Assembly: GCF_027497235.1 (NCBI RefSeq)
Contig: NZ_CP114902.1
Coordinates: 1,253,501-1,317,500 of the forward strand
DNA length: 64,000 bases
Direction of reading: 5' to 3'
Source of the DNA: Micromonospora sp. WMMD1128
GTDB lineage: Bacteria; Actinomycetota; Actinomycetes; Mycobacteriales; Micromonosporaceae
The notes beneath the pieces are model-generated. The model was not told where the DNA came from. It saw nothing but the letters and a program-made list of their open reading frames with translations, and did no database searches. Positions 5,879-47,654 of the stretch are shown here, in pieces (within the stretch, counting starts at the first letter, position 1; every line of letters starts with the position of its first letter). Position numbers and translations under genes: made by a program.

Positions 5879-5926
5879 GATCTTGGTATTAAGCCGCCCC
5901 CGGAGGGGCGATTCCGTACCAAGATC
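5879..5926. repeat. Family B interspersed repeat, copy 1 (48 bp)
   Basis: GATCTTGGTA at the left end and GTACCAAGATC at the right end are inverted repeats. Between them lies a small hairpin, GCCCCCGGAGGGGC. From GATC to GATC it is 48 bp, the same as the copies at 24569, 36458 and 47572. It sits in the intergenic space between divergent genes, about 125 bp upstream of the gene starting at 5754. Confidence 0.9.
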
Positions 5927-17128: not shown

Positions 17129-17130
17129 TG

Positions 17131-24568: not shown

Positions 24569-24616
24569 GATCTTGGTACGCAGCCGCCCTCCCGAGGGCG
24601 AACCCGTACCAAGATC
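24569..24616. repeat. Family B interspersed repeat, copy 2 (48 bp)
   Basis: GATCTTGGTACG and CGTACCAAGATC are the inverted ends; GCCCTCCCGAGGGC is the inner hairpin. It lies between the CopC-like gene (stop 24534) and the convergent gltX (stop 24672). Confidence 0.9.
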
Positions 24617-35790: not shown

Positions 35791-38700
35791 ATGCTGTCCG
35801 ACGTGACCACCCCGCACGATCTCGACGACCAGCTCCGCGCCGACCTGGCCGCGCTCGGCGCGCCGGACCAGCGGCGCGACCTCGACGAGCCGCTGCCGCG
35901 CGACGGTGAGTCGCTGCCGCGCGACCGCAATCCGTCCCGTGACGGTGAGCCGCCGCGTTCTGGTGGACTGCCGAGTGATGGCGGGCTGGCGCGGGACGGT
36001 GCGGCGCGGCCCGATGGTCGGGGGCTGACCGGGGCGCAGGCACTGGCGCTGTTCGACGCGCAGGTCACCAGCCGGCTGCTCGACCTGGCCGGGCGCTGGC
36101 TGCGCGGCTTCGGTGAGGGCTACTACACGATCGGGTCGGCCGGCCACGAGGGCAACGCCGGGGTGGCCGCCGCGCTCCGCCCCACCGATCCGGCGTTGTT
36201 GCACTACCGCTCCGGCGCCTTCTACTGCCTCCGCGCCGCCCAGGCCGCCGGTGCCTTCCCAGCCAGCGCGCCACCGGCGCCCGCCCCACTCGACTCGCCG
36301 GCGCTCGCCCCACTCGACTCGCCGGCGCCCGCTCCACCCGCGCCCGCTTCGCCCGACTCGCCGGTACCCGCTTCGCCCGACTCGCCGACGCCCGGCCCGG
36401 GCGCCCGCACCGATCCCGCTTTCCGAGATGGATCTTCTGAAGTGCGGGATGCGAGTAGATCTTGGAAGGAAAGTGCCCCTATGGGGGCCATTTCGTACCA
36501 AGATCTCGAACCTGTGCCTGGCTCTGCGGCGGCTAGCGCTCGGGTTGGGCGGCTGGAAACGGATGAAGCCGCCATCTCGGGCGGGGTTACCGGCTCGGGT
36601 GGAGATGCCGCCTCCAGTGGGGCCGATTCGGGTGAGGTCGCCGCTTCGGGCGAGGACAGTGCCGAGGCGGGTCGCCTCGCGGCGGGAACGGACGCCGAGG
36701 CGGGCGGCCTCGCGGCGGGAACGGACGCCGGTGCGGGTCGCCTCGCGGCGGGTGCCGGCGCGGGCGGGACGGCTGCCGGTGCGGGTGCGGAAGCGGGTCG
36801 CCCTGCGGCCGGGGCGGAGGTGGAGGCGGCCAGCCTGCCGGCGGGAGCGGGCGTCGCCGTGGACGCGGACGGCGACGCCACTGTCGGCGTACCCGGATTG
36901 CCGCCGCCGGCCCTCGACGACGCCTACGCGTCGGCGGCGCGTGACGTGCTGCGGGGCATGGTCGCCTCGGCGGCGGAGCCGCTCGCCGGCGGCCGGCACA
37001 AGGTCTTCGGCCGGGCGGACCTCGCGGTCGTGCCGACCACCTCGACCATCGGCTCGCACCTGCCCCGGGCCGTCGGCCTGGGCCTGGCCCTGGAGCGGCT
37101 GCGCCGGGACGGGCGGCGCGTCGACGGCGACCCGGAGGTCGTGTCCTGGCCGCCGGACGCGGTGGTGGTCTGCTCGTTCGGCGACGCCTCGGTCAACCAT
37201 GCCACGGCCACCGCCGCGCTCAACACCGCCGGGTGGTACGACCACACCGGCCTGCGCATCCCGGTGCTGTTCGTCTGCGAGGACAACGGGTTCGGGATCA
37301 GTGTGCGCTCACCGCAGGGGTGGGTGGCCGCCACGCTGCGGTCGCGGCCCGGCCTCCGCTATTTTGCCGCCGACGGCACGGACGTGGTGGAGACCCACCG
37401 GGTGGCGGCGGAGGCGGCGGCCTGGGTACGCCGGCACCGCCGGCCCGCCGTGCTGCACCTGAGCACGGTACGACTGATGGGGCACGCCGGCGCGGACGCG
37501 GAGTCGGCGTACCGGAGTCCGGCGGAGATCGCCGCGGACGTGGCGCGGGATCCGCTGCTGGTCACCGCCCGCCGGCTGGTCGCGGCCGGCTTCGCGAGCG
37601 GCGAGGAACTGCTGGCCCGGTACGACGAGCGGGGCTGGCAGCTACGCCGGATCGCCGAAGAGGTGCTGGACGAGCCGAAGCTGACGTCCCCGGTCGAGGT
37701 GGTGGCGGAGCTGGCGCCGCGCCGCCCGGCGCGGGTGTCCCGGGCGATCGCCGGGTCGGCGGCGTACGCGGCGGGGCCGGGCGCGGGCGCGCGGGCGGAG
37801 GCGTTCGGCGGCAAGCCGCCGGAGTTGACCGGGCCGCTGACGCTGGCGCAGAGCATCAACGCGGCGCTCGCCGACGGCATGCTCGACCATCCCCGGATGG
37901 CCGTGTTCGGTGAGGACGTGGCCGCCAAGGGCGGGGTGTACGGGGTGACGAAGGGGCTGCGGGACCGGTTCGGGGCGGCGCGGGTGTTCGACACGCTGCT
38001 GGACGAGACGTCGATCCTCGGGCTCGGGCTCGGCGCCGGGCTGGCCGGCATGCTGCCGGTGCCGGAGATCCAGTATCTGGCGTACCTGCACAACGCCGAG
38101 GACCAGTTGCGGGGCGAGGCGGCCACCATGCGGTTCTTCTCCCGGGGCGCGTTCCGCAACCCGATGGTGGTACGGGTGGCCGGGCTGGCGTACCAGGAGG
38201 GCTTCGGCGGGCACTTCCACAACGACAACTCGGTGGCGGTGCTGCGTGACGTGCCGGGGCTGGTGATCGCGGTGCCGGCCCGGCCGGACGACGCCGCACC
38301 GATGCTGCGTACCTGCCTGGCCTCGGCCCGGGTGGACGGCGCCGTCTGTGTGTTCCTGGAGCCGATCGCGCTCTACCACGCCCGCGACCTCTACGCCGAC
38401 GGTGACGGCGAGTGGCTGGCCGAGTATGCCGAGCCGGGCGCCTGGGCGGACCGGCACGTGCCGGTCGGCCGGGCCCGGGTGTACGGGATCGGCTCGGCCG
38501 AGGACCTCACCATCATCACCTTCGGTAACGGGGTGCGGATGTCGTTGCGGGCGGCGGCGACGCTCGCCGACGAGGGCGTCGGCAGTCGGGTGGTGGATCT
38601 GCGCTGGCTCGCCCCGCTGCCGGTGGCGGACATCATCCGGGAGGCGTCGGCGACCGGCCGGGTGCTGGTGGTGGACGAGACGCGGCGCTCCGGCGGGGTG

Positions 38701-38862
38701 GGCGAGGGGGTGCTGGCCGCGCTCGTCGACACCGGCTACGTGGGCGCGGCGCGACGAGTGGCCGCACTTGACTCGTTTGTACCATTAGGTCCGGCTGCTC
38801 ACCAGGTGCTCGTCTCCGAGGAAGCCATCACCCAGGGTGCCCGTACGCTGCTGGCACGGTAA
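35791..38862 (+). CDS. Fused E1 alpha-beta 2-oxoacid dehydrogenase with a repeat-derived insert
   Basis: 1023 aa. The alpha half has [50 protein letters not shown] and the TPP motif [10 protein letters not shown]...EDNGFGIS (near residues 460-495). The beta half starts near residue 680 ([29 protein letters not shown]). It resembles branched-chain 2-oxoacid E1 fusions found in actinobacteria. Odd: about 220 residues (155-373) of Ala/Gly/Pro/Ser repeats split the alpha domain between [11 protein letters not shown] and [10 protein letters not shown], and residues 223-239 are encoded by a family B repeat. A second low-complexity tract (31-78) is near the N-terminus. The frame stays open, so the insert is probably a tolerated disordered loop. 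Confidence 0.85.
36253..36909 (+). repeat. Low-complexity/tandem-repeat insert within the E1 coding sequence
   Basis: Short degenerate repeats (Asp-Ser-Pro-Ala/Pro units at 36283-36400; Gly-Arg-Leu-Ala-Ala-Gly-Thr units at 36661-36770) surround the family B copy. The insert has no counterpart in the usual E1 alpha fold, which continues on both sides. Confidence 0.7.
36458..36505. repeat. Family B interspersed repeat, copy 3 (48 bp, inside a CDS)
   Basis: GATCTTGGAAG and GTACCAAGATC ends with GCCCCTATGGGGGC in the middle. It is read in frame as [17 protein letters not shown]. About 40 bp upstream it also resembles copy 4 (GAT-GATCT...GTAGATCTTGG), so the mobile unit may be longer than 48 bp. 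Confidence 0.9.
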
Positions 38863-47421: not shown

Positions 47422-47510
47422 CCCGCTCGCGCCCCCGTGCCCGCTCGTGCCCCCGTGCCCGCTCGTGCCCCCGTGCCCGCTCGCGCCCCCGTGCCCGCTC
47501 GTACTCCGTG
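47422..47510. repeat. Tandem 18-bp array, 4.9 units
   Basis: Unit CCCGCTCGTGCCCCCGTG, with T/C variation at one position, repeated head to tail right after the ROK stop codon; the last unit decays. There are no spacers, so it is not CRISPR. Confidence 0.9.
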
Positions 47511-47571
47511 CCCCTCCGCCCGCTTCCCTCTCGCCTGTCGGGATAGATCTCTCGATAGGTGAGAGCGTAGA

Positions 47572-47619
47572 GATCTTGGTAGCAAAGTGCCCCTGTGGGG
47601 GCCGTTCCGTACCAAGATC
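47572..47619. repeat. Family B interspersed repeat, copy 4 (48 bp)
   Basis: GATCTTGGTAG and GTACCAAGATC ends with GCCCCTGTGGGGGC between. It lies in the 357-bp ROK-GNAT intergenic region, together with the 18-bp array, a CCCGCA hexamer array and a long inverted repeat. Confidence 0.9.
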
Positions 47620-47624
47620 TCCGA

Positions 47625-47654
47625 CCCGCACCCGCACCCGCACCCGCACCCGCG
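47625..47654. repeat. Hexamer array CCCGCA, five units
   Basis: Five head-to-tail units directly after family B copy 4 (last unit CCCGCG). It is likely slippage. Confidence 0.8.

Follow-up and report, generated by a model that had tools for sequence, protein, structure and literature searches.

In a 64,000-nucleotide stretch of the Micromonospora sp. WMMD1128 genome (the window), a fused E1 alpha-beta gene encoding a 1023-residue thiamine pyrophosphate (TPP) enzyme is found on the forward strand at 35791..38862, and its alpha domain is split by a long Ala/Gly/Pro-rich insert, or linker, that carries one copy of a palindromic repetitive element. We consider it highly likely that this insert represents a permissive surface turn that became a hypervariable acidic loop through in-frame repeats, and that the palindromic hairpin is a later passenger that is predicted to be translated. 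The anatomy of the insert, its open frame, the succession of events reconstructed from the gene tree, the single gain of the element, the hypervariability and the repeats are each supported by the sequence analysis.

In the history that we propose, a surface turn of E1 alpha, 4-17 residues long in the majority of the non-Micromonospora relatives read, would tolerate changes in length. In part of the Micromonosporaceae, chiefly in Micromonospora, this turn would have lengthened by in-frame tandem duplication and point change, yielding an acidic, Ala/Pro/Gly-rich disordered loop with fast turnover while the folded core was kept. One palindrome copy (a 50-nt core plus a side hairpin, together about 95 nt) would then have entered the loop in the ancestor of an 11-row clade of the gene tree, adding about 17-32 residues. 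The gene would have stayed open because the palindrome carries hardly any stop codons, whichever the frame, and the loop can accommodate highly diverse sequence. Subsequently, the element would have been retained in some lineages and decayed or lost in others, as for a passenger.

Anatomy of the split E1 alpha domain

The identity of the gene is supported by the open reading frame list as well as by domain and structure matches. Specifically, a domain search of the 1023-residue frame returned E1_dh, Transket_pyr and Transketolase_C in that order, as in fused 2-oxoacid dehydrogenase E1 proteins, with the E1_dh match beginning only at residue 393, downstream of the insert. The first alpha block (residues 85-152; 36043..36246) is conserved in the alignment, and the second (36940..37710), identified by domain match and motif check, contains FGDAS (463-467), CEDNG (496-500) and the GHAG loop (564-567), all three of which are intact. 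The beta part, comprising Transket_pyr and Transketolase_C, follows at 37831..38859 on the same strand, as defined by domain and structure matches. We take FGDAS and CEDNG to be the TPP/Mg motif and GHAG to be the HAG loop, and the YR, EDN and GED residues are likewise presumed to hold their usual functional roles. Orthologs in public records are annotated as thiamine pyrophosphate-dependent enzyme, transketolase or 2-oxoisovalerate dehydrogenase E1 component. The structure of the window protein resembles the E1 components of branched-chain keto acid dehydrogenase and pyruvate dehydrogenase equally, so that a branched-chain substrate, as the preliminary description had implied, is not singled out. 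Relative to the branched-chain or pyruvate dehydrogenase E1 structures of Thermus (1umb), human (2bff) and 1w85, the protein studied here carries alpha and beta parts on a single fused chain, with a loop of 231 aa interrupting the alpha domain.

Alignment to homologs shows that the conserved alpha blocks stop at residue 152 and restart at residue 384, which places the hypervariable acidic linker at residues 153-383 (36247..36939, forward strand), slightly wider than the span of 155-373 given earlier. In the structure model, the predicted local distance difference test score (pLDDT) averages 96 and 91 for the two ten-residue blocks spanning residues 141 to 160, and is <50 over linker residues 168-351. 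A repeat search located in-frame tandem repeats built from a 24-nt unit and a 63-nt super-unit at 36267..36408, and an in-frame 33-nt (11 aa) repeat at 36661..36752. The end of the linker (residues 352-368; 36844..36894) is more conserved and is predicted to form a beta hairpin with strands at 354-357 and 363-366; a similar segment is seen in many orthologs, though not in all. Structural RNA was considered for the insert and rejected, as no Rfam family matched 36200-36950 even at thresholds up to E = 1.

The palindromic element itself, termed family B, is a 50-nt sequence (AGATCT...AGATCT; 36457..36506, with no strand assigned) that was delimited by palindrome search and folding and has a folding z-score of -6.9 against 200 shuffles. 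Together with the next base it encodes residues 223-239. Immediately 5' of it lies a 45-nt side module (36412..36456), recognized by folding and copy comparison, in which a second 7-bp stem pairs 36413-36419 with 36444-36450; similar modules accompany 3 other copies in the genome, and the module has diverged in the E1 genes of related species. These data bear out the preliminary description insofar as it placed an Ala/Gly/Pro-rich insert in the TPP fold, a family B element in frame at residues 223-239, and a repetitive hairpin together with in-frame tandem repeats inside E1 alpha, without a break in the frame.

Separately from the linker, a second lineage-specific expansion, rich in Gly/Arg/Asp/Pro, was observed near the N terminus of E1 (about residues 27-77; window 35869-36020), and this expansion is shorter in strain WMMD998 and in the other relatives printed.

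Age, reading frame and growth of the linker

With respect to the age of the insert, we compared the best 80 homologous loci, leaving out L109 because it was not alignable to both blocks. The block-to-block distance was 56-315 aa in 14 Micromonospora loci, 59 aa in Plantactinospora and 4-15 aa in the other 64, and the 55 among these 64 that lie outside the Micromonosporaceae all had 6-11 aa at the turn. Within Micromonospora, the E1 gene was found in 114 of 121 genomes, and the main ortholog was read in 99 (13 of the matching genomes were not fetched, and L177 and L211, which start inside the gene, were dropped). Every one of these 99 orthologs has the linker, at 31-315 aa with a median of 124, and its length varies even under one species label. 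A second, shorter E1 alpha-beta homolog (L262-L270; E 1e-60 or better), present in 9/121 Micromonospora genomes, has a 6-aa turn in 9/9 cases. In other genera of the family, the 22 best-matching loci, given as loci, have 6-17 aa in 11, 37-63 aa in 10 and 110 aa in one. This gradation places the lengthening of the turn within the Micromonosporaceae, with the greatest extent in Micromonospora. Homologs without the insert, whose existence the preliminary description had left to be checked, are thus represented both by the paralogs and by the homologs outside the family, and the refuting observation that it had named, an insert conserved in length and sequence among distant relatives, did not materialize, the site spanning lengths from 4 to 315 aa.

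The linker behaves like translated sequence as judged from its reading frame and composition. The E1 frame contains zero stops in 99/99 linkers, the other five frames having 30-120 stops each in total, and net charge in frame is negative in all 99 (pooled, -11.7 per 100 residues) and in 0/99 in the other two forward frames. Where the linkers can be aligned, synonymous (pS) and nonsynonymous (pN) divergence are 0.29 and 0.21, respectively, against 0.136 and 0.018 in the core. These observations bear on the possibility that no single translated protein contains the insert, and that it instead reflects an assembly error, a programmed skip or a split gene. The codon model does score the linker poorly, and in the window gene the GC content at third codon positions (GC3) of the linker outside the element is below that of the core (0.74 vs 0.95). 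The absence of stops and the acidic composition in the E1 frame only, however, argue against such an interpretation, and assembly error in particular, an objection the preliminary description had itself raised, is unlikely because the genome is a single contig of 6.81 Mb and another strain, WMMD998 (P0001), has a 232-aa linker of the same kind carrying the same element. We therefore regard this alternative as most improbable, and the insert is presumably translated and retained in the mature protein, with a loop that would leave enzyme activity unaffected.

In terms of how the linker grew, tandem arrays are present in 74/99 linkers, compared with 26/99 codon-shuffled linkers and 31/99 cores, and cover on average 26% of linker sequence, against 3% after codon shuffling and 2% in cores. 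The best repeat period is divisible by three in 72 of these 74 linkers (20/26 in codon-shuffled linkers, 14/31 in cores), and linker length correlates with repeat-covered length (Spearman 0.62, p 7e-12). Repeat duplication was probably the main cause of linker growth. The earlier characterization of the insert as repeat-driven accordingly holds for the tandem repeats; it does not hold for the hairpin, since the linker is older and occurs in 88/99 orthologs outside the one clade that has the element.

Probable capture and fate of the palindrome in E1

A search of the linkers with the repeat consensus set apart seven clear carriers, with scores of 74-98, and three degenerate carriers scoring 40-45; the best score among 342 shuffled linkers was 28 and the next natural linker scored 25. 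On a tree of the E1 core built without the linker, all ten carriers fall in one 11-row clade (support of 100 in the Shimodaira-Hasegawa-like approximate likelihood ratio test), and the distribution of the element requires two changes, the simplest scenario being a single gain with a single loss. This clade is nested among species that have the linker but lack the element, and on this tree the linker therefore predates the hairpin, which is read as a later passenger.

The opposite order, in which the turn was opened by insertion of the hairpin and the tandem repeats were seeded from it thereafter, could account for the presence of element and repeats in one insert, and 5/39 other palindrome copies do adjoin a 6-7-nt tandem array. 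Nonetheless, it is contradicted by the event order on the gene tree, and arrays near palindromes are not clearly enriched (16/39 vs 189/696 noncoding windows), which leaves this order very unlikely. Several independent insertions into the same linker also have to be weighed, as most of these genomes carry multiple copies of the element. Against this stand the confinement of all carriers among the 99 to one clade with one gain, the related side module that, in most carriers, precedes the element in a common frame, and the sharing of GGAAC or GGAGC by the four M. chalcea-clade E1 copies, which was not seen in the non-E1 copies listed. Repeated insertion is accordingly improbable, if slightly less so than the reversed order.

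A further question is whether the encoded peptide, RSW.ESAP.GA.SYQDL, was recruited to a role, such as that of a binding motif of the loop, and is now maintained by selection. In keeping with such a role, the element forms a conserved island of 17 codons without net indel in the seven clear carriers, amid surroundings that are largely unalignable between the more distant ones, and its variation is concentrated in codon 4. It is also kept in 13/13 M. chalcea records and in WMMD998, WMMC241 and G199, all of them additional carriers. On the other hand, nonsynonymous divergence inside the element is about equal to synonymous divergence (e.g., pN 0.07, pS 0.09), the element has degenerated in L168, L174 and L253 and is missing from L259, and the WMMD-type relatives P0002, P0003, P0004, P0006 and P0007 lack the W.ESAP motif. 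Furthermore, four of the seven clear carriers come from the M. chalcea clade and have a broken cofactor site. The codon usage of the element is also still foreign, with a GC3 of 0.53-0.59 against 0.95-0.98 in the core. Comparison of the carriers thus gave no good evidence for recruitment, which we consider doubtful, and a tolerated passenger in the loop is the favoured reading of the element. The broader proposal that the palindrome was domesticated as protein, with the 17-residue peptide having a role in E1 that extends to the apparent maintained pseudoenzyme of the M. chalcea clade, is doubtful to the same degree. Selection on the DNA of the element was a separate candidate, since the element shows less divergence, in most pairs, than do the synonymous sites of the core; it was set aside, the numbers being few and the carriers picked by similarity.

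Several observations weigh against this account of a repeat-grown loop with a passenger hairpin. Periods divisible by three are partly built in, given their share in the codon-shuffled linkers, and among close pairs only 152/339 gaps are multiples of three, or 31/64 in the 12 pairs that pass the filter. In the 7 filtered pairs with at most 4 gaps the figure is 15/17, a subset chosen after the rows were seen, and we attribute the low in-frame figures to ambiguous alignment, a judgement made after the fact. The core tree was obtained by a quick search and 32/98 of its inner branches are open. The element has diverged less than the rest of the linker, unlike a pure passenger, although only carriers recognisable by similarity were counted. 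The acidic composition of all linkers suggests some selection on the loop, and so a possible function that we do not name. Finally, the codon model missed the linker as coding and began the E1 gene after it, which limits the power of its intergenic calls for the 39 other palindrome copies.

The M. chalcea-type proteins differ from other E1 orthologs in the cofactor site itself. In a five-row clade (L250-L254, from G018, G062, G059, G097 and G020), alterations or deletions affect the CEDN motif, the HYR segment and the GHAG loop, and M. chalcea proteins have FGRDV where the other printed proteins have FGEDV. Overall, 15/110 loci fail at least one of three motif tests, namely L250-L254, L177 and L211 (the two that start inside the gene), L255, which has two motif changes and a shortened loop, and seven loci with a single change. 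The reading frames are open. The ratio of nonsynonymous to synonymous substitution rates in the core is about 0.17-0.34 among L250, L251, L252 and L254, compared with 0.15-0.24 among L166, L167 and L169, and the short paralog, of 740 aa beside the M. chalcea-type E1, is present in three of the five clade genomes (G018, G059, G062) and in G080, the genome of L255. Judging from these sequences, the M. chalcea-type E1 is possibly a maintained pseudoenzyme beside a second enzyme. The loss of the TPP/Mg-site signature residues and of the GHAG loop with the frame still open was also observed in M. chalcea proteins including P0042 and P0045.

The palindrome family and its precedents

Exact-ended palindromes start at four positions in the window (5879, 24569, 36458 and 47572); apart from the E1 copy, these were found by pattern search at 5879..5926, 24569..24616 and 47572..47619, in each case between genes according to the codon model and with no strand assigned. 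Across the genome, the pattern GATCTTGG-N24-44-CCAAGATC has 40 matches, 38 of them of 48 bp, and the reversed control pattern has 0. All 39 other copies lie between genes by the codon model, with flanking genes that are convergent in 16, divergent in 4 and tandem in 18, and with no right-hand gene in 1 (hand count). We judge the E1 copy to be the only intragenic one of the 40 on these sequence-based calls. A second candidate, L150, was rejected, as the frame that spans it has a flavin reductase domain only after the element and the copy is read as lying upstream of that gene. Copies open in all six frames number 26/40, the mean being 5.4 open frames against 3.2 in shuffles. The palindrome is present in 97/121 Micromonospora genomes, with copy numbers ranging from 0 to 100 across the 121, and its inverted-repeat ends and copy number that varies between relatives are those expected of a miniature inverted-repeat transposable element (MITE). 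The element would have entered the E1 loop by insertion; an alignable empty site for this copy was not found. As to what mobilises it, a repetitive extragenic palindrome (REP)-associated tyrosine transposase (Y1_Tnp, PF01797) was rejected, with 0 matches to this domain in this genome and positive control genomes in 5/14 cases.

Two further candidate properties of the family were dropped. A regular second hairpin beside every palindrome is not indicated, since the TCCCG...CGGGA module occurs on 4/80 sides (2/2808 control windows) and adjacent stems of at least 7 bp accompany 6/40 copies vs 27/117 controls. Promotion of slippage by the hairpins was unconvincing as well, the enrichment of nearby tandem arrays being weak.

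The closest precedent appears to be that of the Rickettsia palindromic elements (RPEs), which PMC10969869, with reference to the work of Ogata et al. (2000, 2002), describes as multi-copy palindromic repeats, open in many frames, that occur in frame inside a metabolic gene. The likeness drawn here is one of organization. RPEs are about 150 bp long, with nearly half in open reading frames and in many genes, whereas here the core is 50 nt and 1/40 copies is intragenic as judged from codon model and homology; the frequent occurrence in frames of unrelated genes that marks RPEs is therefore not seen, within the limited power of the codon model. The present host is, moreover, a GC-rich actinomycete, and the site a pre-existing disordered linker. 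In PMC2996958, in-frame palindromic repeats are also reported for Wolbachia and Methanocaldococcus, and such insertions are typically in non-structured segments. The PARCEL palindromic coding repeats treated there similarly consist of palindromic DNA in coding sequence, but they are tandem, amphipathic and mostly in membrane proteins, and ours is a single copy in the loop of a soluble-type enzyme. REPs and MITE-like repeats resemble the family in being short and mostly intergenic, in the excess of convergent over divergent sites and in the range of copy number between species, and differ in that this genome lacks the PF01797 domain.

By this comparison, the E1 copy is a further case of in-frame palindromic repeats in bacterial open reading frames, in another phylum than Rickettsia and in an already growing loop; among the best matches listed from open-licence literature, we found no earlier report of the Micromonospora element or of the E1 loop. 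From the 99 orthologs, the paralogs that represent the empty site and the succession of events, the conversion of a repetitive palindrome into predicted protein can be traced in a high-GC actinomycete. The loop lengths found at this single position of a well-studied enzyme fold, from 4 to 315 aa, further form a natural series through which the disorder tolerance of a catalytic domain, and whether captured repeats are passengers or recruited, become testable.

Additional repeats were also noted. The five of the 39 other copies that abut a 6-7-nt tandem array are L128, L132, L152, L154 and L163 (around position 2050), and within the window a palindrome-adjoining tandem array was noted at 47422-47653. 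The copies listed for G004, G033 and G055 represent a second subfamily with the same ends and other arms (GATCTTGGACAGTTTCCGT...ACGGAAACTGTCCAAGATC). Next to the palindrome copies in L133, L155, L160 and L139 lies yet another repeat, GATCATGAAGTTGGCGG...GACAAAA, complete or in part. Another repeat family, consisting of palindromes that contain GGGGCCCC, has seven copies in the window, at 17130, 17462, 26112, 29505, 50901, 53895 and 57749.
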